A stretch of DNA of 64,000 nucleotides from Lactiplantibacillus songbeiensis. GTDB lineage: Bacteria; Bacillota; Bacilli; Lactobacillales; Lactobacillaceae. The position numbers and the translations under genes are program-made. Positions 4,292 through 48,498 of the stretch are shown here, piece after piece; position 1 is the first letter of the stretch; each line of letters starts with the position of its first letter. Where the stretch lies: assembly GCF_005405125.1 (NCBI RefSeq), contig NZ_BJDL01000018.1:1-64000 (forward strand). Reading direction: 5' to 3'. Below the pieces are notes generated by a model. It was not told the DNA's origin. It did no database searches and saw only the letters and a program-made list of their open reading frames with translations.

Positions 4292-4440
4292 GTTGGTTTC
4301 TAAAATGCTCAGCCGTGTCGTTGGCCTTAGCGCGAGTGGTCTGCTCGGAATTAGGCCAAGGTCAGTTTTGAAGATCGGGCCTTAGCTTCAAAATGGCCCA
4401 CAGCGTTCCAGCGTTTTAGAAACCAACCGGTAGGCGGCAA
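4292..4440 (+). repeat. Intergenic structured repeat, type B (complete copy)
   Basis: The outer arm TCTAAAATGCT pairs with AGCGTTTTAGA. Hairpin 1 is TTGGCCTTAG with TTAGGCCAA. Hairpin 2 is TTTTGAAG with CTTCAAAA. It shares GTGTCGTT and CGTTCCAGC with type A elements. The remaining gap to 4560 has no gene that I can support. Confidence 0.8.
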
Positions 4441-4565
4441 CTTCAACCAACCCTTACTTGCTACCATCAATCTTAAGTTGCTTCGCTAATCATAACATCT
4501 ATACCAACCTAAACTAACCTGACCCATAATTTACACAACCAATAGCTGGCGTTCGTTGACAGCAA

Positions 4566-4602
4566 AACGGCCTGAATCAGTTTTCACTGATTCAGGCCGT
4601 AC
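4566..4602 (-). terminator. Terminator of the copZ-dps transcript
   Basis: Perfect 12-bp stem (GGCCTGAATCAG with CTGATTCAGGCC) and a minus-strand GTTTTGCT tail. Confidence 0.8.
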
Positions 4603-4618
4603 TTAATTTCAGTAACGG

Positions 4619-5176
4619 TTAATCTTCGTCATCATCATCGTCTTCTTCGTCCAAACCAGTCCGTGCCTCGTTACCCACAAAGGCTTGCAACTGACGAATA
4701 TTGCGATTATTACTGCCACGGTAGCCGACTAACCAAGCGGCTAAAGCTGGGCGTTCTTCTTTTTCCGCCAACTTGATGGCCCGGTCAACGAATAGATTTT
4801 CGGTATCAAAATCTTTAATCGTCGCTGCCACCAGCGTATCAGCATCGCTATACTTGAACGCGCCATTTTCTTCCAGCATTGAATACTTAGTTAATTCGGC
4901 TGTCGTTGAAGAAGGCTTCTGAGCTTCATCTAATAACAGGTCGCCCAATTCAGCAAAGTGGGCTGTATTCTCTTGTAACAAGCGGTCATATTCAGCTTGT
5001 AACCCAAAGTAATTAGCACCTTTAACATACCATTTAACTTGGTTTAACTTGACGTATTCGACCATTAAGTTTGATAAGATATGATTCGTCATGGCCCCAG
5101 CAGTTGGGACATGATGGTCGATATCACTTTGCTTTAATTCTGCGGCGTATTGATCTTCAATTGTTAGTTCACTCAT
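4619..5176 (-). CDS. Dps/ferritin-like protein with degenerate ferroxidase centre
   Basis: A 185-aa protein matching the Dps fold in the first helices (LSNLMVEYVKLNQVKWYVKGANYFGL). In canonical Dps the helix reads HW.V.GPNF..LH..; here the iron ligands His31 and His43 correspond to Lys and Gln, and the Asp58 position is Ala, so the usual intersubunit ferroxidase site looks lost. The C-terminus ends in a run of Asp/Glu (EEDDDDDED), which could bind metal. Canonical Dps proteins are about 155-175 aa. It starts 11 nt after the CopZ-like gene stop, with SD GGAGG, so the two are co-transcribed under the FLP-type box. Possibly a DNA-binding or metal-buffering protein rather than an iron oxidase. 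Confidence 0.75.
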   Translation of the reverse strand: MSELTIEDQYAAELKQSDIDHHVPTAGAMTNHILSNLMVEYVKLNQVKWYVKGANYFGLQAEYDRLLQENTAHFAELGDLLLDEAQKPSSTTAELTKYSMLEENGAFKYSDADTLVAATIKDFDTENLFVDRAIKLAEKEERPALAAWLVGYRGSNNRNIRQLQAFVGNEARTGLDEEDDDDDED

Positions 5177-5187
5177 GCGAATTCCTC

Positions 5188-5409
5188 CTATTTAACCTTC
5201 ATGCTTTCAACTTCATACCCCAAGCCAGTGACCACATCTGATAATTGATCTGCACTCGTTACTGAGTCGTCAAAATCAGCTTTCACTTTGCTGGCATTGA
5301 ATAATACTTTAACTTTTTCAACGCCCGTTTGATTAGCGACCGCCTTTTCAATCTTAGTCATGCATGATGGGCAGGTTAAGGTTCCTAATTGCATCGTTGC
5401 TTTTGCCAT
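5188..5409 (-). CDS. CopZ-like HMA metallochaperone 1
   Basis: A 73-aa single HMA domain with the metal-binding motif TCPSCMTKIE (Cys13, Cys16). It delivers Cu(I) or a related soft metal to a pump or regulator in this family. The ATPase at 1192 lacks its own HMA domain and is the obvious local partner. SD CGGAGG lies 8 nt before the ATG. The promoter has a perfect CTTGACGGCGGTCAAG dyad. First gene of a two-gene transcript with the Dps-like gene. About two thirds identical to the second chaperone at 5495 by eye, so the two arose by duplication. Confidence 0.88.
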   Translation of the reverse strand: MAKATMQLGTLTCPSCMTKIEKAVANQTGVEKVKVLFNASKVKADFDDSVTSADQLSDVVTGLGYEVESMKVK

Positions 5410-5450
5410 AATGATTACCTCCGAATTGATTTGTTTTACTTGATGTTCTT

Positions 5451-5493
5451 ATCATAACGGCTAAGTTCATTTAAAAACTTGACCGCCGTCAAG
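5451..5493 (-). promoter_or_regulatory. copZ1 promoter with perfect FNR/FLP-type box
   Basis: The box CTTGACGGCGGTCAAG (5478-5493) is a perfect palindrome. Its centre is 29.5 bp from the first base of the -10 TATGAT (5451-5456), identical to the ATPase and copZ2 promoters. No separate -35 is visible. Confidence 0.78.
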
Positions 5494-5494
5494 C

Positions 5495-5731
5495 TTACGC
5501 AACTTTTGGTTGTTTAACTTTAATACTTTTAACCGTATAGCCAAGACCCGTCACGACCGCGGCTAGTTGATCCGCTGTCGTTTGGGTGTCATCAAATTGA
5601 AGCTTGACCTTGCTGGCATTGAATAACACTTTGACGCTAGCGACACCCGTTTGATTAGCTAAGGCCTTTTGAATCTTAGTCATACATGATGGGCAGGTTA
5701 ACGTATCTAGTTGCATAATTGCTTTTGTCAT
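5495..5731 (-). CDS. CopZ-like HMA metallochaperone 2
   Basis: A 78-aa HMA-fold protein with TCPSCMTKIQ. Three ATGs stand in tandem (5737, 5734, 5731). The third gives 8 nt from GGAGG, as in the paralogous gene, so it is chosen. Compared with chaperone 1 it has a short extra C-terminal tail (QPKVA). It has its own FLP-box promoter and is probably monocistronic, since the box and promoter of chaperone 1 follow immediately. Confidence 0.85.
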   Translation of the reverse strand: MTKAIMQLDTLTCPSCMTKIQKALANQTGVASVKVLFNASKVKLQFDDTQTTADQLAAVVTGLGYTVKSIKVKQPKVA

Positions 5732-5772
5732 CATCATTACCTCCGTGATCGTTATCTCAAGTTGATGGCTCT

Positions 5773-5815
5773 ATCATAACGAGAATCCGCCAATTAAAAC
5801 TTGACCGCCATCAAG
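5773..5815 (-). promoter_or_regulatory. copZ2 promoter with FNR/FLP-type box
   Basis: CTTGATGGCGGTCAAG (5800-5815) is centred 29.5 bp before the first base of TATGAT (5773-5778), the same geometry as the two sister promoters. Confidence 0.75.
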
Positions 5816-5854
5816 AAATAAATTCTTTTTTGCGCGTATGATAATCATAGTTAG

Positions 5855-5979
5855 TTGCCACTCTGGTTGGACCAGAGTGGGCTGCTCGGACTTAGGCCAA
5901 GGCCAGCTTTGAAGACCGCACTTCGGCTTCAAAATGGCCCATGGCGTTCCGGCATTTTAGGAACCAACCGGCAGGCGGA
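5855..5979 (+). repeat. Chimeric, 5'-truncated type B repeat
   Basis: Begins with a small perfect hairpin built from a type A end (CCACTCTGGT...ACCAGAGTGG). It then joins type B inside hairpin 1 and continues through hairpin 2 (GAAGACCGCACTTCGGCTTC) to the B end CATTTTAGGAACCAACC. The left arm of B is missing. Confidence 0.75.
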
Positions 5980-6098
5980 AAACTTAACCAGCATTAAAGT
6001 CACTCAAAATATTAATTATTAATAATCTAGACATAAAAAGTCGATGTTGAAAAATATCTGTTATAGTTATGATGAAGATTTATAAGGAGGTTTTTGCC

Positions 6099-6773
6099 AT
6101 GTCAGCACACGCTACTCATGAATGTGTTCAACTCGTGCCCATCTTTCAAGAACTTGAAGCTTCACAATTAGATACCATCGAATCGATCGTTCAACACCAT
6201 CATTACCAAACTGGTGAGACCCTGTTCAACGCTGAAGATTCCTTAGATACCTTATTGATTGTCGCTGGCGGTCAGGTCAAAGTTTACCAATTAGCTGCCA
6301 ATGGTCGCGAACAGTTACTCTATCTATTGCAGACCGGTGATATTGATGGCGAGGCTGCATTATTCGAAAATAAGCAGCGAACATCTTACGCGGAAGCCTT
6401 AGTACCGACCGATATTTGCAGTATTCGTCGTGACGACTTTCAACAACTAATGCAACAATATCCAAGCATTAGCATCAATGTGCTGAATGTTTTCGGCAAA
6501 CGCTTGACCCAACTAGAAAAGCAAACCACTAGTACGGCCACCGAATCCGTGGAAGCGCGCTTGGCTAATTATCTGACCGAAACAGCCGCTTCACTAGACG
6601 TTCAAGCTTTTAAACTACCACTAAAGAAAAAAGACCTGGCCACCTTTTTGGGGACCACGCCGGAAACAATTAGCCGTAAACTGACTAGATTCGAAAAACA
6701 AGGCCTAATTACTCAAAAACCTGGCAAAGTGATCCAAATCAACGATGCCGATCAATTATTACTAGTGGAATAA
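6099..6773 (+). CDS. CRP/FNR-family regulator, FLP-like
   Basis: A 224-aa transcription factor with a cyclic-nucleotide-binding-like beta-roll (residues 15-130) and a C-terminal winged helix whose recognition helix is TPETISRKLTRFEK, carrying the E..SR contact residues of FNR. There is no FNR-type cysteine cluster. Instead Cys9 and Cys107 are 98 residues apart, close to the disulfide-switch pair of Lactobacillus FLP. Start chosen at 6099 because AAGGAGG lies 8 nt upstream; the frame is open to 6069. Three FNR-type boxes at neighbouring metal genes are its likely targets. Predicted thiol-redox or metal responsive activator; effector not shown by sequence. Confidence 0.85.
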   Translation: MSAHATHECVQLVPIFQELEASQLDTIESIVQHHHYQTGETLFNAEDSLDTLLIVAGGQVKVYQLAANGREQLLYLLQTGDIDGEAALFENKQRTSYAEALVPTDICSIRRDDFQQLMQQYPSISINVLNVFGKRLTQLEKQTTSTATESVEARLANYLTETAASLDVQAFKLPLKKKDLATFLGTTPETISRKLTRFEKQGLITQKPGKVIQINDADQLLLVE

Positions 6774-6775
6774 GC

Positions 6776-6825
6776 AACTAGCGGTTCAAAACGTCGTCAC
6801 CGACTGCTGAACCGCTAGTTTTGTG
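6776..6825 (+). terminator. Terminator of the FLP-like gene
   Basis: AACTAGCGGTTCA pairs with TGAACCGCTAGTT, followed by TTGTGT. Confidence 0.75.
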
Positions 6826-6986
6826 TACTGATTGTTGGCTCTCCTACTGACTCTTTTTCAGCGTCTTTCCTGCTGAAAATAACAACCGTCACCCCGCTTG
6901 ATTTTTGCCGACACAATCAGCGCAACGAAACAAAATCTACGTTATAATTAACGTTGAATTAGAAAATTAATCGAGGAGTGGATTTA

Positions 6987-8903
6987 ATGGCTACAATCAG
7001 TCAAGCAGCAGTGAAAAATGATCTGTACGATGCCGTCAACGGTGAATGGCTCAAGACCGCCGAAATTCCAGACGACCATGCGTCGACTGGGGGCTTCATG
7101 GACCTTGTTGATGCTATCGAAAAAACGCTTATGCATGATTTTGACGCGATGGCCGCGGGCGATGTTGCCCCGACCGACCCGCAAGTCGCCGAATTCATTA
7201 AATTTTATCAATTAACGACGGACTTCTCCAAGCGCAACTCGGAAGGTGCCCAACCGATTCAACCTTGTTTAAAACAAATCGATAGTCTCAGTGACTTAAC
7301 TGACTTGCAACACCGCATGCCTGACTGGATCTACGATGGCTTACCATTGCCATTCAGCCTCGATGTCGATGCCGATATGAAGAATACCAAGGTTAATGCC
7401 TTATTTGCACAAGCGCCCGGGACGATTTTACCTGATAAGACATACTATGATGAGGGCAATCAACAAGGACCAAAGCTATTAGCCGTCTATGGGCAAATGA
7501 TGCTCAAGCTCTTGCAAATGACCGGTTACGATCAAGCCGAAGCGCAACAAATCGTCGATGATACGTTGAAATTCGATCGACTGATCGTGCCATGGGTCAA
7601 AAGTGCTGAAGAAGCGGCCGACTATAGTAAAATGTATAATCCCCGCAGCTTTAAAGACTTTACGAATACCAGTCGTTACCTCGATTTAGCGGCGATTACC
7701 TATTCAGTGATTGCGGGTAATCCGGAAACGGTCATTTTACCAGAACCCGCTTTCTTCGATCATTTTAACGACGTTATCAATCCAGAAAACTTCAATATGA
7801 TGAAGAACTGGATGAAAGCGAAGTTAGTCCAACGTCTCAGCGGTTATCTTAGCGATGACATGCGGACGGTGGGGACGACTTATTCCCGGACGTTATCTGG
7901 GCAGAAAGAGCCACGTAGCCAAGCCAAGAGTGCCTACTACTTAGCTGCCGGTACTTTTGACCAAGTTGTCGGTCTCTACTATGGTCACAAATACTTTGGT
8001 GAAACGGCCAAGGCCGATGTGCATCGCATGGTCGAAAAGATGATCGGTGTTTATAAGAACCGACTACAAGCCAATACTTGGCTCAGCGCCGCAACCCGGG
8101 AAAAAGCGATCGTCAAATTGGATAATTTAGGCATTCAAGTCGGTTATCCTGACAAGCTTGACCCATTGTTCACTAAGTTTAAGACCCACAGCGCAGCAGA
8201 AGGCGGCAGTGTCTTAAGCAACGTGTTACATTTTGGTCGCGTTGCTCGCAAAGACATGTTTGCCAAATGGAATCAGCCGACTGATCGGACCCGTTGGGAA
8301 ATGAGTGCCGATACGGTGAATGCCTATTACCATCCATTCATGAACATCATTGTCTTCCCAGCTGCCATCTTACAAGCGCCATTCTACAGTCTCGAACAAG
8401 CACCTAGTGCTAACTACGGTGGGATTGGAGCGGTCATCGCTCACGAAATCTCTCATGCCTTTGATAATAATGGGGCCTTATTCGATGAATTTGGGAACTT
8501 GCATAATTGGTGGACTGACGACGATTCCGCGCACTTTAAAGAACTGGCCAAATCAATGATCAACGAATTCGATGGCTTAGATTTTGCCGGTGCCAAAGTT
8601 AACGGGACGTTGACCGTTTCGGAAAACATTGCCGATGCTGGTGGCCTTAGTTGTGCCGAAGAAGCTGCTAAGAGTGAGGATCAGGTCGACTTGGCCGCTT
8701 TCTTTGAGAACTGGGCAATGGTTTGGCGGATGAAAGCCACCAAGCAATATATGCAATTATTGCTCTCAATTGACGTCCATGCCCCAGCTAAGCTACGGGC
8801 CAACGTCCAAGTTAAGAACCTCGATGATTTCTTTACCACATTCGATATTCAACCAGCTGATCCGATGTACTTAGCACCGGACCAACGCGTTAAGATCTGG
8901 TAA
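6987..8903 (+). CDS. pepO: M13-family zinc endopeptidase PepO
   Basis: A 638-aa oligopeptidase of the neprilysin family, near the usual 630-aa length of lactobacillar PepO. Zinc motif HEISH lies in VIAHEISHAFDNNG (about residue 485). The third ligand is in ENIADAGG. NAYYHPFMNIIVFPA is the conserved substrate-binding segment. No signal peptide, so it degrades imported peptides in the cytoplasm. The ATG at 6987 has GGAG 8 nt upstream; the frame-extending GTG at 6978 overlaps the SD and is rejected. A TATAAT at 6943-6948 probably marks the promoter. Confidence 0.95.
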   Translation: MATISQAAVKNDLYDAVNGEWLKTAEIPDDHASTGGFMDLVDAIEKTLMHDFDAMAAGDVAPTDPQVAEFIKFYQLTTDFSKRNSEGAQPIQPCLKQIDSLSDLTDLQHRMPDWIYDGLPLPFSLDVDADMKNTKVNALFAQAPGTILPDKTYYDEGNQQGPKLLAVYGQMMLKLLQMTGYDQAEAQQIVDDTLKFDRLIVPWVKSAEEAADYSKMYNPRSFKDFTNTSRYLDLAAITYSVIAGNPETVILPEPAFFDHFNDVINPENFNMMKNWMKAKLVQRLSGYLSDDMRTVGTTYSRTLSGQKEPRSQAKSAYYLAAGTFDQVVGLYYGHKYFGETAKADVHRMVEKMIGVYKNRLQANTWLSAATREKAIVKLDNLGIQVGYPDKLDPLFTKFKTHSAAEGGSVLSNVLHFGRVARKDMFAKWNQPTDRTRWEMSADTVNAYYHPFMNIIVFPAAILQAPFYSLEQAPSANYGGIGAVIAHEISHAFDNNGALFDEFGNLHNWWTDDDSAHFKELAKSMINEFDGLDFAGAKVNGTLTVSENIADAGGLSCAEEAAKSEDQVDLAAFFENWAMVWRMKATKQYMQLLLSIDVHAPAKLRANVQVKNLDDFFTTFDIQPADPMYLAPDQRVKIW

Positions 8904-8930
8904 TCATCATTTCAAAAACAAAAGTACGGT

Positions 8931-8964
8931 AGAGCGCGAGAATAACTCTCGCGCTCTTCTTATT
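8931..8964 (+). terminator. pepO terminator
   Basis: AGAGCGCGAG and CTCGCGCTCT form a 10-bp stem followed by TCTTATT. Confidence 0.8.
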
Positions 8965-8982
8965 GACTGAAAGGAGTGCACC

Positions 8983-9480
8983 ATGCCCAAATTTGAAAAA
9001 TACCATCCAATCTTAACGCCCCACTATACGTTTGATTGGCTAACTAAAGCCCGGGCCAAAGACGTCTTGGCTTTTTATCAACAATTTACCCCGGTGACTG
9101 AGACGGTACCTACCATGCTGACAACTGCCGACCGAATTAACCACACGATGCGTGACATCTTCCACGACCAAAAGTTGGTCTGGGGCATCAGTCGGCGAGC
9201 AGATGATCAATTCATCGGTCAAGCCGGCTTTGATCCGATTGATACTGATCAGCAGACGGCAACCCTCCAAGTGCACGTCATGCCGGCTGCCCATCAACAA
9301 ACCACGTTAGCCGAATTGTATACCCGCCTAACTGAGTTTGGCACACAAGAATTGGGGCTCACCCAGCTGACTGTCACCTTACCCGTCACCGATACCATTG
9401 CAACTCAAGTCCTAACCGCGCTTCACTTCCGGTCAGCCCCAGCAACTACCACCGACCGAATCACCTATCAATTACCATAG
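8983..9480 (+). CDS. GNAT-like acetyltransferase, putative
   Basis: A 165-aa protein with a GNAT-like pattern: a GISRRADDQFIGQAGFDPID strand-turn near residue 70, a central HVMPA segment where the acetyl-CoA loop is expected, and a C-terminal LTALHFRS stretch typical of RimJ/RimL-type folds. The classical Q/R-x-x-G-x-G/A loop is not clear (AAHQQTTLAE), so cofactor binding is uncertain. SD AAGGAG lies 8 nt before the ATG. Stands alone between two terminators. Substrate unknown. Confidence 0.65.
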   Translation: MPKFEKYHPILTPHYTFDWLTKARAKDVLAFYQQFTPVTETVPTMLTTADRINHTMRDIFHDQKLVWGISRRADDQFIGQAGFDPIDTDQQTATLQVHVMPAAHQQTTLAELYTRLTEFGTQELGLTQLTVTLPVTDTIATQVLTALHFRSAPATTTDRITYQLP

Positions 9481-9489
9481 TTTTAGTTT

Positions 9490-9715: not shown

Positions 9716-9726
9716 TACAATATAAT
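9716..9726 (+). promoter_or_regulatory. -10 region of the NADH oxidase promoter
   Basis: Overlapping TACAAT (9716-9721) and TATAAT (9721-9726). With TTGCGT at 9694-9699 the first gives a 16-bp spacer. The leader is about 65 nt. Confidence 0.45.
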
Positions 9727-11276: not shown

Positions 11277-13481
11277 CTATGCTTGCCGCCGCCATGTCCA
11301 ACGACCAAAGCCGCCGAGAATGACTAACAAGATGGTCCCAATTAAGGCGACTAGCGGATGCGTCCCTGATTCATCAGTTTGTGGTAACCGACCTGTTGTC
11401 GCATTGCTGCTTGCGGCAGCCGTCCCATTACCAGTCGTCCCGTTGACCGGGATCCCACTAGTTGTGGAACCAGCACCCGTGGTCGTGCCAGTTGTTGAAC
11501 TGGCTGTCGGCCCGTTGGTGGTTCCTTGATTAGCTTGACTTGGCGTTACTGCTGGTGTTGTTGTTTGACCAGTCGTGGTCCCAGATTGACCGGGAATTTC
11601 GGGCTGTTCAGATTGACCAGCAGTCCCTGGATAGCTTGGTTTCGCTGGTTTTTCAGGTTTAGCCGGATGCGTTGGTGTCCCGGGTTCAGTTGGAACACCG
11701 GTCTGACCGGATCCTTCATCGTCAGGATTACCTGGATGACCGGGTTCAGTCGTTCCAGGTTCACCTGGTTTTTCAGGCTCACTCGGATTACCAGGTTCAG
11801 TTGTTCCAGGTTCACCTGGTTTTTCAGGTTCTCCCGGTTTGCCTGGTTCAGTTGTTCCAGGTTCACCAGGCTTTTCAGGTTCCCCCGGCTTGCCTGGTTC
11901 AGTTGGTGTCCCAGGTTCTTCTGGGTTCTCCGGATTACCCGGTTCAGTTGGTGTCCCGGGTTCTTCTGGGTTCTCTGGATTCTCTGGGTTCTCTGGGTTC
12001 TCTGGATTTTCAGGTTCACTTGGATTCGTCGGGGTCTTCGTATCAGTCGCAGTGACCATAACTGTAGCCGTTTCCCCACTCACAATCGTAAATGAGACTG
12101 GTTCGGTGGCTAGCTCATACCCATCTGGTGCTTTGACTTCGACTAATTGATACTTACCAGGTGCTAAGTTATCCAAGTGTAACTCACCTTTAGCATTAGT
12201 GATTAAGTTAGAGATCAACACCTCACCATCGCTGCCGCGTAAGTCATAAACGGCGCCTGCTAAAGCTTGTTTGCTGGCTGCATCCGTCTTGGTTAACGTA
12301 ACGGCCCCAGTATGTGGCACTTCTTTATCCGCTAACTCAACGTTGGCTACGGCAGTCGAATCTTCGATAATTTCGAACGGAATTGGCTCCGTATTCAACG
12401 CATAGCCATCTGGCGCCTTAGTTTCAACAAAGGTATACTTGCCAGGTGCCAAATTGTCCAAAGCCAATTGACCTTTGGCATCCGTTGTCAAATCAGTTTT
12501 AACCACGTCGCCTTTACTATCAACTAACTTAAAGACAGCCCCGGCGATGGCTTGTAACGTAGTCGCATCAGTCTTCGTTAACTTGACGGAACCACCGGAC
12601 GGATCACCTTGACCAGTCCCGGAACCGCCCCAAGTGACTTGGCCGCTAACAGTTTCTCCATTCATGGTCGCGGTATTCACCACTTCGCCACTATCTTCAG
12701 GATTACCTAGTTTAGCGTTATACACCACATTAACCGCGGTATTGACATTCTCAAAGGTAAAGGTCAGCTCGTTGCCGTTTTGAACGACCGTTGGGGTAAT
12801 TGTCCCAGTTGCGTTGAAATGACCATTTTGATCATAGGTACCCGTATGTGCCACAACTGATCCTGGGATAAAGGTTTGTTTAGGTCCCAACGTATCGTGA
12901 ACAACGACCGTTCCTAAATCTTTGCCAGTTGGGTTAAAGGCCACGTTCCACGTGACCTCCGTCGGAATGCCATTCTCATCGCGTCCGGCGACCCAGCCAA
13001 CTTTATTGACGGTCCAATTAAAATGCACATCGCCCGTGGTACTCCCTTTCGCATAGAAATTCAGCGTTCCTTTACGATTAATAGACGTATGTGCGAAGGC
13101 ATCGTTAAACGTGATCGTCCCAGTCGTTTCACCAGCTTTAATCGTAAATGTCCCAATCGTCTGACCAGTCGAATCAACTAACGGCATCGTCAAATCTGAC
13201 GCCTTCATCCCACCTTCAGGCAACTGAACAATCGCGGTATCGCCAGCTTGAATCTTGACACCGTCTGGAATCGACCAATTATAACCAACATCATAATTAC
13301 TCCATTTACTCATCGTCGTCGTATCGGTAATGACATTACCATACCGGTCTTTAACGGTGGCATCACTGCCATTAAGCCCAGACGTCTCGATCACTTTCGC
13401 CTGTGCCGTACCACCAATGGTAAGCAGCAATGCTAAGCACGCAACTAGGCCGAGTAGCACTGCCATGAATTTGCTGCGCAT
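11277..13481 (-). CDS. LPXTG-anchored adhesin with Cna-like head, two SpaA repeats and Pro-rich stalk
   Basis: A 734-aa cell-wall protein. Order: signal peptide (residues 1-35, ending ...TAQA), collagen-binding/Ig-like adhesive domain (about 40-290), two SpaA/CnaB repeats (about 297-375 and 392-470) each beginning with LTKTD and containing LDNLAPGKY and KAPDGY, a Pro/Glu/Gly stalk (480-615) made of PEN and PGEPEKPGEPGTTEPG-type units, a Ser/Thr-rich stretch, then the sortase motif LPQTDE at 699, a membrane helix and WRRQA. SpaA repeats often form isopeptide bonds. ATG at 13481 follows GGGGG by 8 nt; the in-frame TTG at 13496 overlaps the SD. Binds host or plant matrix by family analogy only. 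Confidence 0.9.
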   Translation of the reverse strand: MRSKFMAVLLGLVACLALLLTIGGTAQAKVIETSGLNGSDATVKDRYGNVITDTTTMSKWSNYDVGYNWSIPDGVKIQAGDTAIVQLPEGGMKASDLTMPLVDSTGQTIGTFTIKAGETTGTITFNDAFAHTSINRKGTLNFYAKGSTTGDVHFNWTVNKVGWVAGRDENGIPTEVTWNVAFNPTGKDLGTVVVHDTLGPKQTFIPGSVVAHTGTYDQNGHFNATGTITPTVVQNGNELTFTFENVNTAVNVVYNAKLGNPEDSGEVVNTATMNGETVSGQVTWGGSGTGQGDPSGGSVKLTKTDATTLQAIAGAVFKLVDSKGDVVKTDLTTDAKGQLALDNLAPGKYTFVETKAPDGYALNTEPIPFEIIEDSTAVANVELADKEVPHTGAVTLTKTDAASKQALAGAVYDLRGSDGEVLISNLITNAKGELHLDNLAPGKYQLVEVKAPDGYELATEPVSFTIVSGETATVMVTATDTKTPTNPSEPENPENPENPENPENPEEPGTPTEPGNPENPEEPGTPTEPGKPGEPEKPGEPGTTEPGKPGEPEKPGEPGTTEPGNPSEPEKPGEPGTTEPGHPGNPDDEGSGQTGVPTEPGTPTHPAKPEKPAKPSYPGTAGQSEQPEIPGQSGTTTGQTTTPAVTPSQANQGTTNGPTASSTTGTTTGAGSTTSGIPVNGTTGNGTAAASSNATTGRLPQTDESGTHPLVALIGTILLVILGGFGRWTWRRQA
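11690..12035 (-). repeat. In-gene tandem repeats of the adhesin stalk
   Basis: Imperfect repeats of about 48-72 bp (PGKPGEPEKPGEPGTTE type) are followed by a run of 9-bp PEN codon repeats. They can expand or contract in frame and probably set stalk length. The open frames on the opposite strand here are by-products of this composition. Confidence 0.8.
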
Positions 13482-13711
13482 CGCTTTTACCCCCAATTCT
13501 ATTTAAACGCTTAGCTGGCAACTTAAGTTTTCAAGTTTCCCTCACTCCCTATTCTCTAACTTAGCCTTACCGGTTATCAGTCATTAAGACCAAAACCGTT
13601 ACTACCATTTGTACGATACTGCATCTTATGGGTCAGAACGTATCCAGACGATTCATTAAGCAACTCGCCAAACAAAACTTTTGACGTGCAAAAATCAGAT
13701 TGAGTTAACTT

Positions 13712-13863: not shown

Positions 13864-14000
13864 TCGATATTGTTATAATCATGACTGGTACACTTACCTG
13901 CCAGTTAATTGCTAAACTATGACCCTTTTTGAAACCAAACTCTCGGCTAAATGACCGAGCTTAAAATAATCAATCGTTAATTTTTTAATTTTCGTTAGTT

Positions 14001-14150
14001 AACGCCGGGCGGGCCAGAATTGGCTCAGTGGTGTCGTTTATCTTAGTCGCGATTTTCGACTTAGATAAAGCCCGGCTTGTGAGACCGCTCTTTGGCTCGC
14101 AAACGCGGCCACCACGTTCCAGCCGATTCTGGACCAACCAGAGTGGCAAT
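14001..14150 (+). repeat. Intergenic structured repeat, type A
   Basis: Outer arm GGCCAGAATTGGCT pairs with AGCCGATTCTGG. Hairpin 1 is ATCTTAGTCG with CGACTTAGAT. Hairpin 2 is TTGTGAG with CTCGCAA. The upstream flank (GAAACCAAACTCTCGGCTAAAT, near 13930) looks like the end of a lost type B element. Confidence 0.85.
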
Positions 14151-14187
14151 CTAATCCAACTAGCCCCTTCTAGCCCTATCTAAAAAC

Positions 14188-29295: not shown

Positions 29296-29321
29296 CCTTT
29301 TTTACGTTAATTAGAACACAA

Positions 29322-33932: not shown

Positions 33933-34043
33933 GCCGTCACCTGCTTTCTTATTTTAAATTTAGTTCTACTGTGATTCTGCTTGGGACTGCTTTAAATAAA
34001 TTCTTTGAATCAAGCAGCCAGTCAACGAATTTTAAATCCATTT

Positions 34044-34193
34044 AACGCCGGGCGGGGTAGAATTGGCTCAGTGGTGTCGTTTGACTTAGTCGGTGATTTT
34101 CCGAGTTAGTCAAAGCCTGGCTTATGAGGCCGCACTTTGGCTCATAAACGCGGCCACCACGTTCCAGCCAATTCTAGCCCAACCAGAGTCACA
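34044..34193 (+). repeat. Intergenic structured repeat, type A
   Basis: Hairpin 1 begins GACT and ends AGTC, where other copies have ATCT and AGAT. Hairpin 2 is TTATGAG with CTCATAA, where 14001 has TTGTGAG with CTCGCAA. Both are compensated changes. Lies between the AarF gene and the T-box leader. Confidence 0.85.
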
Positions 34194-34264
34194 AATAATT
34201 ATCTCCATTATCCATCATTCCCAACCAGTTCGCACTACCGATTTAAACTTTTTCAGAAAAAACG

Positions 34265-34299: not shown

Positions 34300-34607
34300 A
34301 CATTAAAAAACGGTTAACAAACGCGTTGATAAACACAGTACGTTGCGACTTCTTTTTTAGAGAGTGCCGACTTGGTGAGAGGGCATAAAGAAGCCGTAAC
34401 CGAAAATCAGTTTTGAGCGGCGATGACGAAGCGTAGGTGCTAGTTGTCGTTGGGTGCTCCCATTATCGAGCCAGGGTATCGTCAGTGACCGGTCACTGAC
34501 CGTACCTTTAAGGCGATGACAGTAATGTGATCGTGAAGCTAAGGTGGTAACGCGTTTTAAACGTCCTTGTAATCTGAGTCAAAACTCAGCTTGCAAGGAC
34601 GTTTTTT
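34300..34607 (+). ncRNA. T-box riboswitch leader of brnQ
   Basis: The T-box sequence AAGGTGGTAACGCG (34541-34554) fits the consensus AGGGTGGNACCGCG. Its TGGT pairs with a tRNA 3' end ACCA, so the discriminator base is A, as in Ile, Val and Leu tRNAs. Stem I base is GAGTGCC (34362-34368) with GGTGCTC (34453-34459). The terminator AACGTCCTTG...CAAGGACGTT with inner CTGAGT/ACTCAG ends at the T run at 34602-34607. A candidate specifier is GTC (Val) at 34446-34448, but I cannot fix the specifier loop by eye. Uncharged tRNA should allow read-through into the branched-chain amino acid transporter. Confidence 0.85.
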
Positions 34608-34642
34608 GTTTAACCGATTTAAAATTATGGAGGTTTACATAT

Positions 34643-36034
34643 ATGCTAAATAAAGTTCAAAAACGAAACTTAACCAAACGTGATTATGTCACGTTAAGCT
34701 CCATGATCTTCGCGCTCTTCTTCGGGGCCGGCAACTTGATTTTCCCCTTACATCTCGGCCAATTAGCCGGTAGTCACTGGGGCATGGCCGCCGTTGGATT
34801 CTTAGTCACCGCTGTTTTATTGCCATTATTATCTGTTTTAGCGGTCTGTGTCACAAAATCCAAAGGCGTTTATGATATTGGGAAGCCTTTAGGTGCAACC
34901 TTCGCCATCGTCTTCATGGTCTTGATTCACTTTACCATCGGCCCATTCTTCGGGACACCACGGACCGCCACAGTTTCCTTTACTGTTGGGCTGGCACCAT
35001 TCTTCGCAGCTAAATATCAAACCGTTGCCTTACTCGTTTTCTCAGCCGTCTTCTTTGGCTTAGCTTACGTTTTATCACTAGAACAACATAAAATCATGAA
35101 TCGGGTCGGGAAGCTACTTAATCCCCTATTCCTCTTACTCTTAGTCGTCGTGTTCTTCGTTGCTTTTAGCAGTCCACTCGCTCACGCTGGCAACACGACT
35201 GCGACCGCCGCTTACGTCAGTGCTGGATTTACAAATGGTTTCTTACAAGGTTATAACACAATGGATGCCTTAGCCGGCTTGGCTTTAGGCGTTACCATCG
35301 TCACGGCTGTTAAATTCATGGGTCAAACTGACCCGAACAAAGCCGCTTGGGTCACTGCCCGCGCTGGGTTATTCTCCATGTCATTTGAAGGCTTGATCTA
35401 TGTCTTATTAATCTTAGTCGGTGCCCAATCATTAGGCATGTTCAAACTTTCTGCTAATGGCGGGATCGCCTTTAATCAAATCGTCAATCACTATATGGGC
35501 ACTTTCGGCCAAGCCGTGTTAGCCGTCTTAATCATCACCACTTGCTTAACGACTGCCATTGGCTTAGTTGCGGCCTTTGCCCAAGATTTCCATAAGCATT
35601 TCAGTTTCTTAAGCTACAAAGCTTGGTTACGGATCACTTGTTTAGCATCATTTTTGACTGCTAACATCGGCTTAAACCAAATCATCGCCTGGTCAACACC
35701 CGTGTTAATGTTCCTCTACCCACTCGCAATGGCGTTGATCTTCTTATCAATCTTGTCACCATTGTTCCATCAAGACGCCGTTGTTTACCGCTGGGTCGTT
35801 GTCTTCACCGTGGTCCCCGCCGTCTTCGACATGGTCGCGGCCTTTCCTGCCGTCGTTAGCCAAAGTGCCCTTGGACAAGCCATGGCGCACGTTCAAAGTT
35901 TCATGCCATTAGCTACTAGTGGCATGGACTGGTTAGTGCCCGCCTTAGTTGGCGCGGTCTTTGGCACTTTACATTACATGATGCGACAACGATCACGTAA
36001 TCACGCCACGACGACGGTTGGCAACCGCGATTAA
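34643..36034 (+). CDS. brnQ: Branched-chain amino acid transporter BrnQ
   Basis: A 463-aa, about 12-helix permease of the LIVCS family, importing Leu, Ile and Val with Na+ or H+. The N-terminal signature SSMIFALFFGAGNLIFP is clear, and GYNTMDALAGLALG lies mid-protein. SD GGAGG precedes the ATG at 34643; the upstream frame to 34544 runs through the leader terminator and is rejected. Expression is controlled by the T-box leader, i.e. by tRNA charging. Confidence 0.93.
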   Translation: MLNKVQKRNLTKRDYVTLSSMIFALFFGAGNLIFPLHLGQLAGSHWGMAAVGFLVTAVLLPLLSVLAVCVTKSKGVYDIGKPLGATFAIVFMVLIHFTIGPFFGTPRTATVSFTVGLAPFFAAKYQTVALLVFSAVFFGLAYVLSLEQHKIMNRVGKLLNPLFLLLLVVVFFVAFSSPLAHAGNTTATAAYVSAGFTNGFLQGYNTMDALAGLALGVTIVTAVKFMGQTDPNKAAWVTARAGLFSMSFEGLIYVLLILVGAQSLGMFKLSANGGIAFNQIVNHYMGTFGQAVLAVLIITTCLTTAIGLVAAFAQDFHKHFSFLSYKAWLRITCLASFLTANIGLNQIIAWSTPVLMFLYPLAMALIFLSILSPLFHQDAVVYRWVVVFTVVPAVFDMVAAFPAVVSQSALGQAMAHVQSFMPLATSGMDWLVPALVGAVFGTLHYMMRQRSRNHATTTVGNRD

Positions 36035-39311: not shown

Positions 39312-39340
39312 GCTACTACGCTTGGTGCTAGTTGACTTAA

Positions 39341-39493
39341 ATTGCCACTCTGGTTGACCCAGAATCGGCTGGAACGTGGTGGCCGCGTTTGAAAGCCAAA
39401 GGGCGGTCTTCCAAGCCGGGCTTTATCTAAGTCGGAAAATCACCGACTAAGATAAACGACACCACTGAGCCAATTCTGGCCCGCCCGGCGTTA
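39341..39493 (-). repeat. Intergenic structured repeat, type A (reverse orientation)
   Basis: Read on the minus strand, hairpin 1 is ATCTTAGTCGG with CCGACTTAGAT, and hairpin 2 is TTGGAAG with CTTTCAA, a further compensated variant. Linked to the partial type B copy that follows. Confidence 0.85.
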
Positions 39494-39553
39494 ACTAACG
39501 GGGATTGAAAAATCAACGATTGATTATTCATAATCCACTTATTTAGCCGAGAA

Positions 39554-39642
39554 GTTGGTTACTAAAATACTCAACCATGTCGTTGGCCTTAATGCGAGTG
39601 GTCTACTCGGACTTAGGCCAAGGTCAGTTTTCAAGACCAAGC
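39554..39642 (+). repeat. Partial type B repeat (left half)
   Basis: Contains the left arm CTAAAATACTCAACCATGTCGTT, hairpin 1 (TTGGCCTTAA with TTAGGCCAA) and the start of hairpin 2 (GTTTTCAAGACC). The right arm is lost. With the adjacent A copy it repeats the B-linker-A arrangement in reverse. Confidence 0.75.
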
Positions 39643-39699
39643 GTCAACTACTATCATTTAAAGCCTAAGCAGCACCACATATAGTAACCTATCATCAGT

Positions 39700-42378: not shown

Positions 42379-43770
42379 CTAGTTTTGCCAATTACCAGTC
42401 GCGGTGACCCGTGGCTGGTCGTTGCCTAGTTGTAATTCTTGCTCCACCGCCTGTTGACCGACCTGATTTAAATAATTAAACGGTTCATCGAAATTCGGCT
42501 GGAACAGCATATCGACATAAGCCAAGTCATCAATGGTATTACCATTTTGAATCATAACCGACATCGTATTTGCAGATTGCGACACATCATGTTTACTCCA
42601 GAATTGTGCCCCCAGCAACTGCCGATTTTCATAGTTATACACTAAATCGATCAATAACTCGGTCGGATTCGGCATGTAAGTTGGCCGATAGGGGCCGTCA
42701 AAGACGACATGGCGAATTGGCATTTTGTCGCGCTTGGCGGCAACGTACGTTAATCCCGTGGTCGCCAACGTGTAGTCAAATAACTTCATTGCCGAAGTCG
42801 CCTGGGTCCCCATATAAGGCTGAATATCACCGAAAACATTGATACCGGCCAACGCTCCTTGCCGTAATGCATTCGTCGCTAACGGCGTATAGGCTGGCGT
42901 CCCAGTCGGATTGAAGTTGACGACACATGCATCGCCAGCCGCATAGATATCAGGGTCCGAGGTCTGCACATAATCGTTAATAATGAGTGCCCCATGTCGA
43001 TCCATCTTGACTTGTTTGCGCAACAAGTCCGTATTCGGGACAAATCCAGTACAGACAATTGCCAAGTCTGCCCGATAATTACCACCCGATGATTCGATGA
43101 TGACCTGACCATCATCCGCCGTATCAAAGCTTGTAACCCGTTCTTCCATGTGTAAATGCACGCCATGGTCTTTCAATAACTGGATGGCTTTGTTAGATAA
43201 TTCTGGCCCAATATAGTTATTTAGGATCTGATCATGCGACTGAAATAACGACACTTCATGATTAGTTTCGGCATAACTTTCGGCTAATTCCGTCCCCATA
43301 TAACCCGCACCAATCACCGCAATATGGTGATGCTCCTTGGCACTCGCATAGATGGCCTGGGCCTGTTCATAGTTTTTACATAACAGGACATTCATCTGGT
43401 CAATCCCAATAATTGGCGGCACAGCCACAGATGAACCGGTCGCCATAATCAACTTGTCGTAAGTATCATTAAAGACTTTCCCAGTCTGCATATCAGCGAC
43501 TTGCAACGTTTTCGTCTTCGTATCGATCCGTAGCACATTATGCTTAAGCCGGACAGTTGCGCCCATCTTGACTAAGTCTTCTGGTGACGCATAGAACATA
43601 TCCTCTAAACGATCAATTTTCCCCGTTAAATACAAATAAATCCCACTTGAGACAAACGAAATATTATCGTTACGCTCATACACCGTGACGTCCGTTTCTG
43701 GATGGCGCTTCAAAATTTGTTTCGCGGCTGCAGTCCCCGCATGCGTACTCCCAACAATCACAATCTTCAT
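42379..43770 (-). CDS. NADH oxidase-family flavoprotein lacking Cys42
   Basis: A 463-aa paralogue of the nox product at 9795 with all cofactor motifs: VIVGSTHAGTAA (FAD), VIGAGYMGTEL (NADH), YAAGDA. The redox-active Cys42 is Ser (SFVSSGIYL), and Cys8 is also Ser. In this family a Cys42-to-Ser change shifts oxygen reduction from water towards hydrogen peroxide, so this protein may be an H2O2-forming oxidase, or act on another acceptor. About 13 extra C-terminal residues. Weak SD (GAGGG). In an operon with the LURP-one gene. Confidence 0.87.
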   Translation of the reverse strand: MKIVIVGSTHAGTAAAKQILKRHPETDVTVYERNDNISFVSSGIYLYLTGKIDRLEDMFYASPEDLVKMGATVRLKHNVLRIDTKTKTLQVADMQTGKVFNDTYDKLIMATGSSVAVPPIIGIDQMNVLLCKNYEQAQAIYASAKEHHHIAVIGAGYMGTELAESYAETNHEVSLFQSHDQILNNYIGPELSNKAIQLLKDHGVHLHMEERVTSFDTADDGQVIIESSGGNYRADLAIVCTGFVPNTDLLRKQVKMDRHGALIINDYVQTSDPDIYAAGDACVVNFNPTGTPAYTPLATNALRQGALAGINVFGDIQPYMGTQATSAMKLFDYTLATTGLTYVAAKRDKMPIRHVVFDGPYRPTYMPNPTELLIDLVYNYENRQLLGAQFWSKHDVSQSANTMSVMIQNGNTIDDLAYVDMLFQPNFDEPFNYLNQVGQQAVEQELQLGNDQPRVTATGNWQN

Positions 43771-44043
43771 GAGTCAACCCTCGTTTATTTTTAGTATGTA
43801 TAGTTATCGTTAAAAATTATTAATGACTAACACTTTTAACGACGCGTTCTCTACGTCATAATTATCTTCCAGTGTAACACCAAACCTCGACATTCTAAAA
43901 GTATATCTTGCACGATTTACTTACTAATTATAACAGCTAGCCCATTTTGAACAATTAGTGTCACCAATCGCAACTCAAGCACTACCGCCCTCACTTTAGT
44001 AAGCTGAACTAACAATCTTCCAACTTCTAGTACCAGCCTAACT

Positions 44044-44202
44044 TGCCGCCTGCCGGTTGGTTCCTAAAACGCTGGAACGCCATGGGCCATTTTGAAGCCA
44101 AAGTACGGTCTCCAAAATTGGCCTTGGCCTAAGTCCGAGCAGACCACTCGCACTAAGGCCAACGACACGGCTGAGCATTTTAGGAACCAACCTCTCGGCT
44201 AG
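44044..44202 (-). repeat. Intergenic structured repeat, type B (reverse orientation)
   Basis: Outer arm CCTAAAACGCTGG with GCATTTTAGG, and both hairpins are complete. Followed by a linker ending ATAAATGTCGACTAA and a type A copy, a compound repeated at 48081-48340. Confidence 0.85.
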
Positions 44203-44239
44203 ACTTGTTGATTGAACATTTTATAAATGTCGACTAATT

Positions 44240-44391
44240 AACGACGGGCGGGCCAGAATTGGCTCAGTGGTGTCGTTTGACTTAGCCGGTGATTTTTCCG
44301 GGTTAGTCAAAGCCCGGCTTGTAAGACCGCTCTTCGGCTCACAAACGTGGCCACCACATTCCAGCCGATTCTGGCCCAACCAGAGTGGCAA
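44240..44391 (+). repeat. Intergenic structured repeat, type A
   Basis: Hairpin 1 GACTTAGCCGG with CCGGGTTAGTC. Hairpin 2 TTGTAAG with CTCACAA (one mismatch). Outer arm GGCCAGAATTGGCT with AGCCGATTCTGGCC. Confidence 0.85.
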
Positions 44392-44395
44392 CTAA

Positions 44396-44431
44396 TAAAA
44401 AAACTACCGTCAAATTTTGACAGTAGTTGTA
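44396..44431 (-). terminator. galR terminator
   Basis: Minus strand ACTACTGTCAAAATTTGACGGTAGT followed by seven T. Confidence 0.85.
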
Positions 44432-44441
44432 ATTAATCGAT

Positions 44442-45461
<1,020 letters not shown>

Positions 45462-46928
45462 TTAGTCTGCTTTAACCGCGGCCACAAACCGATTGAATGC
45501 GGCTTCACCAGCGGCATCCCACTTGAAGACTCCGGCATCAGCTAAGACGCGCGCAAAGACTTGGCCAACTTCACGGTCGATCACCGCATCAACGTTGTCC
45601 GCAGTAATATCAGTCTTCGCTTTAATCGCGTCTGCCCACGGTTGGTGCATCGCTACCATTTGATTATGACGGCCTAAGAGATATTTTGCAACCTCTTGAA
45701 GTTCGGTCTTCAACCGCGCTGGTAGAATCGCGCGACCCATGACTTCAATCAAGCCGATATTTTCTTTCTTAATATGTTGGACGTCCTGATGTGGATGGAA
45801 GATGCCGTCTGGATATTGCTTGGACGTTTGATTATCCCGCAAAACAAGGTCTAAGACATACTGATCGCCGACTTTCCGGGCAAGCGGCGTCGTAGTATGA
45901 TGCCGGACATTATCAGTATAAGCTCTGACATCCACGCTTTCATCAGAATAGTTCATCCAAACGTTATGGATCTTAGTAGCCGCATCCAACAAGGCGACTT
46001 GGTCGGTACTCGTCAAACGAATCGTCGACATCGGCCATTTTACAATTCCGGCTTCAACCCCAGCAATCCCTAAATCCAGCTGACGAGCAATCGGCGCTTT
46101 CATCATTGGAAAAACATGTCGGCCACCCTGGTAATGTTCATGTGACAACATCGAGCCACCTACAATCGGGAGATCGGCATTACTACCGACAAAGTAATGT
46201 GGGAACTGCTTCACGATTTCGAGCAAGTTACTAAACGTCTGACGATTGATCACCATTGGCCGATGAACTTGGTCCAAGAAGATCGAATGTTCATTGAAGT
46301 AAGCATACGGCGAATATTGGAACCCCCAAGTTTCACCGCCAAGCGTCAAACGAATAATCCGATGATTACTGCGGGCAGGATAACCTAAGCGCCCTAAGTA
46401 GCCCTCATTCTCCATGCACAACTGGCAAAGTGGATAGCCGTCTTGCGGTTGATTACGCGCCGCCGCAATGGCTTTCGGGTCCTTTTCTGGCTTCGATAAG
46501 TTGATGGTGATTTCTAAATCACCAAAGTCCGTCGTCGCTGGGAAGACCACGTTTTTAGCAATCGCCCGCGTTTTGATGTAGTCATTGGCTTTACTTAAGT
46601 GGTAGAAATAATCCGTCGCCGCTTGCGGACTCGTCTGATACTTGTTCCAAAACGTCTGATTTAACGCTGATGGCAATGGTGTGACTAAGTCCATCAACTG
46701 ATCAGCTAAAATATCGCGATCAGATGGCGTGTCTTCAATTTTGCCATTAGTGAGCGCCGTTTGGACTAACGCATCCGTTAAGCTCGTTAGTTGGTCATCG
46801 ACAGCAGTAACTGGATTATCGTCACCGACCAGCGCTAAAATGCGATTGTGGACATAGATTTGATCTAAGCCAGTGTAGGGCGATGGTGACGCCAACACAG
46901 CCTGCACAAATTGATCAACAGTTGTCAT
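45462..46928 (-). CDS. galT: Galactose-1-phosphate uridylyltransferase, class II
   Basis: A 488-aa enzyme of the long Gram-positive GalT type, exchanging UMP between UDP-glucose and galactose-1-phosphate in the Leloir pathway. Recognised by overall similarity: CQLCMENEGYLGRLGYPARSNHRI, SMLSHEHYQGGRHVFPM and HHTTTPLARK. Start codon overlaps the galE stop (TAATG), so translation is coupled. Confidence 0.93.
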   Translation of the reverse strand: MTTVDQFVQAVLASPSPYTGLDQIYVHNRILALVGDDNPVTAVDDQLTSLTDALVQTALTNGKIEDTPSDRDILADQLMDLVTPLPSALNQTFWNKYQTSPQAATDYFYHLSKANDYIKTRAIAKNVVFPATTDFGDLEITINLSKPEKDPKAIAAARNQPQDGYPLCQLCMENEGYLGRLGYPARSNHRIIRLTLGGETWGFQYSPYAYFNEHSIFLDQVHRPMVINRQTFSNLLEIVKQFPHYFVGSNADLPIVGGSMLSHEHYQGGRHVFPMMKAPIARQLDLGIAGVEAGIVKWPMSTIRLTSTDQVALLDAATKIHNVWMNYSDESVDVRAYTDNVRHHTTTPLARKVGDQYVLDLVLRDNQTSKQYPDGIFHPHQDVQHIKKENIGLIEVMGRAILPARLKTELQEVAKYLLGRHNQMVAMHQPWADAIKAKTDITADNVDAVIDREVGQVFARVLADAGVFKWDAAGEAAFNRFVAAVKAD

Positions 46929-47932
46929 TAAGCTTGGCCTCCTCGATCGTTGTAGCCTTTAGGATGAGTCTGTTTCCAGTTCCAAGCGGTCTTGATAATT
47001 TCTTTAACATCATCGAACTGTGGGTCCCAACCTAACATGGTACGGGCTTTATCACTAGCCGCCACTAACGTACTAGGGTCACCAGCCCGCCGTGGGGCCA
47101 TTACCGCTGGAATCGGCTGACCCGTGACTTCACGGGCCGCATCTAGTATTTGTTTGTTTGAGAAACCAGTTGAAGAACCTAAGTTAAAGGCATCACTATC
47201 ATGACCTTGCTGCAAGTAAGTCAACGCTAAGATATGGGCATCAGCCAGATCAACTACGTGGACATAGTCACGAACGTTGGTCCCATCAGGAGTTGGATAG
47301 TCGTCACCAAAGATTTGCAATTGGTCGCGTTCACCAGCCGCCACTTGAAGGATAATTGGCACTAAGTGGGTCTCGGGATGGTGATCTTCACCAATACTGC
47401 CATCCGGCTTGGCACCAGCAACGTTAAAGTAACGTAAGGCCACGAATTTAATTCCGTAGGCGACATCCGACCAATGCATGATCTTTTCCATCGCTAATTT
47501 ACTTTCACCGTAAGGATTGGTTGGCACTTGCGGATCAGTTTCCTTAATCGGAATTTGTTTAGGTTCGCCATACGTTGCGGCGGTTGATGAGAAGACAATC
47601 CGCTTAACGTCATGCGCATGCATCACTTCTAGCAAGTTAATCATCCCAGCCGTATTATTATCGAAATACTTTAACGGCTTCTTCATTGATTCCGGAACTA
47701 CTGAGAAAGCAGCGAAATGAATTACCCCTTCAATATCTTCTTGATCGAATACTGAATTCAAAAAGTCACTATCGCGCACATCACCTTCATAAAACCGCGC
47801 TTTAGCATTGACTGCAGCCCGATGACCGGTAACCAAATTATCAACGACGGCCACGTCATAACCCTTTGAAATTAATCGATCAACTGCATGTGACCCAATA
47901 TAACCGGCGCCACCTAGTACCAAAACTGCCAT
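46928..47932 (-). CDS. galE: UDP-glucose 4-epimerase
   Basis: A 334-aa SDR enzyme. NAD motif GGAGYIGSH at the N-terminus, catalytic Ser/Thr in [10 protein letters not shown], YxxxK in [12 protein letters not shown] and the substrate loop [13 protein letters not shown] precedes the ATG. Although part of the Leloir set, it is separated from galK by 574 bp that contain three structured repeats, so it may have its own promoter or depend on read-through. Confidence 0.95.
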
Positions 47933-48080
47933 TTTTTAGTTCCTCCTGATTTTTTGTTTGTTTTATGTTTACCTTTTAAAGTAGCTAGCTGTTACTCCGC
48001 TACTTGCGCTACCTTTGTAAAGTCTCTCTGTTTCAAAGGCGCTTCCCATCTACAATCGTATACCTGATGCTAGTTGAAAT

Positions 48081-48154
48081 TGCCGCCTGCCGGTTGGTTC
48101 CTAAAACACTGGAACGCCATGGCTGAGCATTTTAGGACCCAACGGCTCGGCTAA
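48081..48154 (-). repeat. Type B repeat with internal deletion
   Basis: Both ends match the copy at 44044-44202, but about 85 bp containing both hairpins are missing. The junction falls at CGCCATGG/CTGAGC, consistent with deletion between the short similar tracts CATGG and CACGG of the full copy. Confidence 0.8.
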
Positions 48155-48191
48155 ATTTGTTGATTGAACATTTTATAAATATCGACTAACT

Positions 48192-48340
48192 AACGCCGGG
48201 CGGGCCAGAATTGGCTCAGTGGTGTCGTTTATCTTAGTCGTGGTTTTCCGACTTAGATAAAGCCCGGCTTTCGAGACCGCACTATGGCTCGAAAACGTGG
48301 CCACCACGTTCCAGCCGATTCTGGCCCAACCAGAGTGGCA
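48192..48340 (+). repeat. Intergenic structured repeat, type A
   Basis: Hairpin 1 ATCTTAGTCG with CGACTTAGAT. Hairpin 2 TTTCGAG with CTCGAAA, perfectly paired and different from all other copies. Lies between galK and galE. Confidence 0.85.
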
Positions 48341-48384
48341 CCCTAATCCAACTAGTACCAAACATGTTTGTTTCTATTTAGTTT

Positions 48385-48498
48385 GCCGAAACGTGCTCGG
48401 CAAAGCTGGGGACTCCGCTTGCTACGCATCTAGAACGACTCGGAAAATCACCGGGTCATTCTAGATACTAGGCAATGCTCGACCCCAACCCGCTTCAC
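48385..48498 (-). repeat. Related structured element, type C
   Basis: A hairpin ATCTAGAACGACTCGG with CCGGGTCATTCTAGAT. Its loop-side bases (CCGGTGATTTTCCGAG on the minus strand) equal those of type A hairpin 1. Surrounding arms (CTGGGG/CCCCA) differ. Single copy in the window. Confidence 0.55.

Follow-up and report, generated by a model that had tools for sequence, protein, structure and literature searches.

A high-copy, MITE-like element built of two inverted three-way junctions in Lactiplantibacillus songbeiensis

The gaps between genes of Lactiplantibacillus songbeiensis contain a dispersed structured repeat, which we analyzed in a window of 64,000 nt (positions 1-64000 of RefSeq contig NZ_BJDL01000018.1, our contig C18) and in the genome as a whole (G000; 3.03 Mb, 50 contigs). 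The repeat is a non-autonomous transposon of the kind known as miniature inverted-repeat transposable element (MITE): it carries terminal inverted repeats (TIRs), is flanked by target duplications and is short and without a transposase. We further consider it probable that this DNA transposon, in which a structured unit is present as two inverted copies, is moved by a protein supplied in trans and that its fold is recognized for mobility.

Architecture and mobility of the element

The first-pass annotation of the window had described units of type A and type B as separate repeats. Alignment of 30 copies showed instead that A and B are the two inverted halves of one composite of ~390 nt. The left end of this alignment is formed by the terminal inverted repeat ACGCTTGGTGCTAGTTG, followed by B in reversed orientation, a spacer, A and the inverted TIR, with the A and B halves facing outward from the centre. 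The TIR (ACGCTTGGTGCTAGTT) has a length of 16-17 nt and is found at both ends. When window positions 44010-44430 were used as query against the own genome, 40 places including the query (the best 40 of 346 candidates) each covered ~350 nt of it. A head-to-head B match lies within 150 nt of 62 of the 150 A matches, with gaps of 56-75 nt and a single one of 123 nt. A and B are distantly alike: they match each other on the minus strand at 70-78% identity, and the covariance models built from genome copies of A (R1) and B (R2) each cross-match the other unit. The genome also holds a third unit type. It too faces A in head-to-head arrangement, and the spacer between the two is longer and variable. 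Copies are often decayed to one half, and most copies in the window lack part of a half.

Copy number was estimated from a coordinate sample of 464 kb, comprising the window and 20 stretches of 20 kb each that were chosen by their position on the contigs. This sample contains 30 proper A units, which extrapolates to 196 per 3.03-Mb genome; leaving out the window with its 5 units, 25 units in 400 kb correspond to ~190 per genome. The A model itself yielded at least 150 matches in the own genome; the 150 scored reach 127-150 bits. Contigs of the assembly start or end in or beside the element (e.g. C18:1, C30:1-110, C34:41996-42113 and C9:29-108), hence the repeat probably breaks the draft assembly.

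With up to 3 mismatches the TIR 16-mer occurs at 279 places in the genome, compared to 42 for the reversed control. Within 724 kb, 125 of 142 TIR places are located no more than 90 nt from a unit and another 6 no more than 450 nt; 11 are without a unit nearby. The distance from TIR to TIR is below 450 nt in 76 of 78 pairs and peaks at 350-449 nt, which would leave too little room for a known transposase gene. Target duplications were analyzed in 76 elements bounded by TIRs. They come from several species, and a few are one insertion represented twice, in two species. Of these elements, 26 are flanked by exact direct repeats that are 6 nt or longer, while 1000 shuffles of the flank pairs gave a mean of 0.4 and a maximum of 4. 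If one mismatch is tolerated in repeats of at least 7 nt, the number rises to 38 of 76 (shuffled flank pairs: mean 0.8). The exact duplications measure 7 nt (7 elements), 8 nt (8) or 9 nt (9), with one element each at 6 and 12 nt. Since an A follows the right TIR in 64/76 elements and a T precedes the left TIR in 56/76, the targets appear to have the form A..T.

Insertion was also assessed by comparison with other species. Using 92 elements with flanks of 250 nt, both flanks could be placed in another species 18 times, and 15 of these placements were filled and 3 empty-like. All three empty-like cases are insertions in L. dongliensis that are absent from the own genome, with gaps of -8, -9 and -3 nt. 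The first two of these values match a target duplication in size, and both sites hold a single target copy, as clean empty sites do. Together with the TIRs and the 7-9 nt duplications this bears out the early guess of a MITE-like element. Four relatives keep the genes flanking the composite at 48060-48366, with 39-55 nt between the aligned blocks versus 568-590 nt in the own genome. We do not count this place as a clean empty site: since the own gap holds ~280 nt besides the element, the relatives are without the element here but provide no clean junction. The existence of close species with filled and empty sites makes mobility and effects on neighboring genes directly testable.

The element occurs in further forms. 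A longer version of ~980 nt, bounded by a closely similar TIR, is present in G019, a genome of the same genus. Internally deleted copies exist as well, and some of them, as read by eye, keep the TIRs without both units. Elements at L278:4516, L284:17417 and L267:6236 have both TIRs but no three-way junctions; they look like products of hairpin excision in the course of replication.

REPINs of the REP-RAYT system are inverted pairs of hairpin units found in many intergenic copies, their units being short palindromes; Y1 chemistry is not expected to yield target duplications or terminal inverted repeats. The halves described here could likewise be hairpin units that a Y1 (RAYT-type) transposase moves in single-stranded form, with the inverted pair as the mobile form. 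The element does share the look of REPINs, being composed of inverted pairs of palindromic units that are intergenic and reach a high copy number. However, it has target duplications, which disfavor this explanation, as well as longer TIRs, and its unit is a three-way junction of 120-140 nt instead of a single short palindrome. We regard a REPIN-like mode of movement as highly improbable.

Covariation of the three-way junctions

Each half folds into a three-way junction, in which hairpin 1 and hairpin 2 are joined to an outer stem that contains the internal loop CA / GTTCC. Hairpin 1 includes a T.T mismatch inside CTTAG/CTTAG. Fold z-scores of four window units, two of them evaluated on both strands, ranged from -6.0 to -9.7. 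The hairpin variants listed in the first-pass annotation are present in the sequence, that is ATCT/AGAT versus GACT/AGTC for hairpin 1 and TTGTGAG/CTCGCAA, TTATGAG/CTCATAA, TTGGAAG/CTTTCAA and TTTCGAG/CTCGAAA for hairpin 2.

Its claim that paired positions change together holds far above chance in both unit types. For A we used 34 rows from within the genome, obtained by sequence similarity or taken from the window, with one B unit left out. Here 98.3% of cells are paired and 11 pairs are changed on both sides; 73 doubly changed cells compare to 19.1 +/- 3.8 in shuffled alignments and at most 9 in slid controls. The 31 rows of B show 97.1% paired cells and 8 pairs changed on both sides, with 19 doubly changed cells versus 4.9 +/- 1.8 after shuffling and at most 6 in slid controls. 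In hairpin 2 of the A units three pairs vary widely, yet do so jointly.

The proposed selection on a fold is supported most strongly by an alignment across genera. It contains 28 units from 7 genomes and 6 genera with a mean column identity of 54%; its rows from other genomes are those of 30 loci minus two of unclear orientation (L041, L058), minus six near-duplicates (L038, L045, L049, L050, L051, L055). RNAalifold, with no structure given, returned the same junction, in which 37 of 43 pairs are compensated, and 339 doubly changed cells were counted compared to 103 in shuffled and no more than 85 in slid controls. Fifteen columns are invariant across genera, including TTCC of the internal loop and the opposite A, the loop-closing T-A pair and the AG / CT pairs of hairpin 2.

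Compensation might also arise without selection if template switching or slippage between the arms of a hairpin copied one arm onto the other. It fits such a process that the most variable positions are the three neighboring hairpin 2 pairs, which almost always change together, and that in some copies, again read by eye, the units appear to have been cut out at the base of the stem, the outcome expected when hairpins are replicated. The mutational process nevertheless leaves unexplained why internal-loop bases are fixed across genera and why A is better paired than B (see below), and we judge it improbable as the source of the covariation.

Fate of inserted copies and role of the fold

Another explanation of the conserved fold would be a mobile structured RNA: the A half would be transcribed and work in the cell as a small RNA or as a decoy of an RNA-binding protein, copies would be selected after insertion, and the transposon would only spread it. 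The internal loop fixed across genera agrees with this idea, and so do several traits of inserted copies. Orthologous copies were compared in 19 alignments of at least 900 nt, which include some rearranged copies and one region twice, with one repeat alignment left out. A units differ at 120/2607 positions, less than the 70 nt adjoining the units (288/3160); B differs at 39/664, the spacer at 19/260 and the mostly coding flanks at 2484/46692 positions. Among the 30 aligned copies, which, however, were chosen by similarity to one query made up mostly of A and B, mean pairwise identity is 0.885 for A, 0.919 for B, 0.705 for the spacer and 0.74 and 0.64 for the TIRs.

A is also better preserved than B within the same copies. 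In 51 mostly structure-chosen copies 130/2488 cells of B are mispaired versus 36/2020 of A, and in 10 copies of the coordinate sample the numbers are 30/337 for B versus 11/395 for A (p = 0.0003). If the three window copies are omitted from the latter, B shows 29/273 and A 9/273 mispaired cells. Speaking against an RNA working in the cell, motif-chosen copies of L. dongliensis do not show this difference (A 23/1134, B 17/705).

G-U pairs are common at fixed places on this strand in both A and B, as would be expected of a transcribed fold. In 122 A copies G-U and A-C occur in a ratio of 99:24, in contrast to 82:84 in 52 B copies. Most of these A copies had been selected by covariance-model rank and are therefore structure-chosen; the others were taken by BLAST rank or lie in the window. 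For proper A units of the coordinate sample, however, the ratio fell to 30:22 (38:28 with the third unit type included), suggesting that much of the excess came from the choice of copies. In motif-chosen L. dongliensis copies, once the motif columns had been excluded, the ratio was 30:3 in A and 33:10 in B. We dropped the claim of RNA-level selection on A from the G-U excess after the ratio had decreased in the coordinate sample.

The orientation of the units relative to genes is random, with 34 in the same and 33 in the opposite direction between tandem gene pairs. Of 118 units, after exclusion of 4 with their midpoint in an open reading frame (ORF), 67 are located in tandem, 26 in convergent and 25 in divergent gaps, close to the window background of 18:8:8. 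Because of the random orientation and these gap types, a role as regulatory untranslated region was rejected. Random orientation and the G-U ratio of the coordinate sample likewise lend no support to the RNA stability unit suggested by the first-pass annotation. The mobile RNA is further disfavored by two same-genus genomes without a match to the A model and others with just one or two units, with 11-36 candidates scored per genome. Altogether we think a mobile structured RNA unlikely. Only tentatively do we entertain a wider idea, a transposable three-way junction with fixed internal loop that is carried through the Lactobacillaceae in TIR transposons at ~200 copies per genome, and whose A half retains a function in inserted copies, in the form of an RNA or a protein-bound DNA fold.

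According to the reading that we prefer, a non-autonomous transposon with a fold recognized for mobility, a transposase supplied in trans would cut at the inverted repeats, and the element would insert into intergenic DNA at targets starting with A and ending with T. The three-way junction would act in its folded state, either as hairpin or cruciform DNA or as a transcript, and would be recognized by a protein that takes part in the cycle of mobility. Spreading would then continue only in lineages in which the fold and its internal loop are retained. Inserted copies would decay, with B deteriorating more quickly than A.

Several observations count against this reading. An autonomous copy was not found among 78 TIR pairs, a negative that is limited by loci mostly only 1-3 kb long and by the lack of a protein-domain search at the 11 TIR places with no unit nearby. 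IS256- and ISL3-type transposases generate target duplications of about 7-9 nt; transposases of these two types (PF00872 and PF01610), the only families searched, are absent from the own genome and from genome G008. The rows of other genomes in the cross-genus alignment were fetched with the structure-aware A model and thus lean towards structure. The slower decay of A halves compared to B hints at constraint or homogenization after insertion, which a pure role in mobility does not need. Mispairing does not differ between elements with and without target duplication (A p=0.35, B p=1.0). Finally, the role of the fold in mobility is itself an inference. The element nevertheless lends itself well to the question of what makes mobile DNA retain a complex fold, which could be a site read by the transposase or a working RNA.

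Three candidates for an autonomous copy were rejected. The only TIR pair of the own genome above 600 nt (L187, 1809 nt) spans two separate A units, judging by their positions. The other pair above 600 nt (L117) is the long G019 version with a deletion. A TIR-like end near an IS256-type transposase of G019 (L313) points away from the transposase.

Distribution, known repeats and copies in the window

A cross-genus covariance model matched 91 of 301 Lactobacillaceae genomes, belonging to 14 of 40 genera, while its single match in a sample of 250 genomes of the class was the own genome. The A model detected 24 of 100 genomes, the own one included, and 0 of 39 from other families. As few candidates were scored per genome, the negatives of these large searches are soft. 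We also determined the occurrence of a 22-nt motif. Among the matches listed, 38 of 54 stretches belong to L. dongliensis; the genus Lactiplantibacillus is further represented by L. nangangensis, L. daoliensis, L. daowaiensis and L. pingfangensis, Levilactobacillus by L. tangyuanensis, L. zymae, L. paucivorans, L. fuyuanensis and L. humaensis, and Secundilactobacillus by S. similis. A match in one Verrucomicrobia bin was taken as chance. A plasmid or phage origin was discarded, as plasmid and phage searches gave no match.

Some genomes hold just one or two units. In one of them (G532:C1:324604-324909; L297 and L303) the sole two units found are again arranged head-to-head, with 64 nt between them. 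In two genomes of another genus there is a single syntenic unit of the G019 type (L295, L296), located beside an ORF which by eye resembles a P-type ATPase. We rejected such genomes as carriers of a single-copy ancestor: since L295 and L296 are one syntenic G019-type copy, horizontal arrival is as likely as ancestry, and the unit may have been acquired horizontally.

BOX, RUP and SPRITE of Streptococcus pneumoniae are high-copy, modular, structured intergenic repeats whose mover is unproven or acts in trans. The element described here resembles them in all these features, and its hosts belong to the same order of bacteria; as far as the Rfam comparison goes it is set apart from them, with no match to any family of release 15. 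In the window only a T-box exceeded the gathering score of Rfam and no family matched the units, nor did any family reach that score at 10 unit-bearing loci of 7 genomes and 6 genera. A weak snoRNA match (E 7.7) was regarded as chance.

A close parallel is QMITE2 of Coxiella burnetii (PMC10969869), which is short and intergenic, has TIRs, direct repeats of 7-9 nt and a predicted stable fold, and lacks its own transposase; BOX, RUP and SPRITE are mentioned there too. The present element shares these traits with such bacterial MITEs but differs by a body of two inverted three-way junctions with compensatory changes and an internal loop fixed across genera. As a further difference, no parent insertion sequence was found in our limited search. 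The listings and abstract openings of open-access literature in PubMed Central give no description of the element in Lactobacillaceae; the string 'lactobac' appears nowhere in the 2024 review of prokaryotic MITEs (PMC10969869), and in PMC2267715 Lactobacillus occurs only in a table row for L. johnsonii. A match to an already described repeat or IS-derived MITE, which the first-pass annotation had named as a refutation, thus did not turn up in Rfam or the open-access literature covered. With ~200 copies between the genes of a single Lactiplantibacillus genome and a presence in 91 of 301 family genomes, the element has remained unnamed in these sources.

Within the window the covariance models identified five full A units, four on the plus and one on the minus strand, two full B units and three B remnants (Table 1). 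The six A and five B copies counted initially were borne out by the models, whereas the single copy of 'type C' was not identified, nor was the third unit type of the genome recognized in the window. The family does not start at position 4292 as had been assumed, since an A end already lies at position 1. Long parts of the window are 87-98% identical to L. dongliensis or G008, in keeping with a Lactiplantibacillus genome.

Table 1. Copies and remnants of the element, and one empty site, in the 64,000-nt window
Feature	Position	Strand	Evidence
3' end of A half with TIR, cut by contig start	1-75	+	R1 at 1-34, 26.5 bits; TIR on - at 60, 1 mismatch
TIR fused to full B unit (4291-4428), without spacer and A half	4279-4450	+	R2 138.8 bits; TIR at 4279, 3 mismatches
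A end fused to B remnant (internal deletion)	5851-5995	+	repeats I12, I13, D10; R2 53.3 bits at 5865-5969
Full A unit (14014-14132) and spacer, without B half	13926-14165	+	repeat I3; R1 136.2 bits
Empty site with one target copy; 389-nt insertion in Lactiplantibacillus dongliensis	29301-29321		locus L083; flank identity 93% and 91%; gap -8
A unit (34057-34177), upstream of T-box leader	34024-34210	+	R1 133.3 bits
Composite: TIR at 39318, A 39359-39479 (-), spacer, decayed B 39553-39693 (+)	39318-39693	-	R1 146 bits, R2 45.1 bits; TIR 0 mismatches
Composite with decayed TIRs and two intact halves: B 44055-44192 (-), spacer, A 44253-44374 (+)	44040-44400	+	R2 167.4 bits, R1 134.4 bits
Composite with most of B deleted: TIR at 48060, B remnant 48092-48144 (-), A 48205-48324 (+), TIR at 48350	48060-48366	+	R1 139 bits, R2 44.3 bits; TIRs 4 and 3 mismatches

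The T-box leader (RF00230, 102 bits) is located at 34317-34571 on the plus strand, where it overlaps the start of an ORF at 34544-36034, with an A unit just upstream. An array of short repeats at 11638-12044, spaced at multiples of 3, lies within a long minus-strand ORF (11277-13496) and resembles a repeat-rich surface protein.

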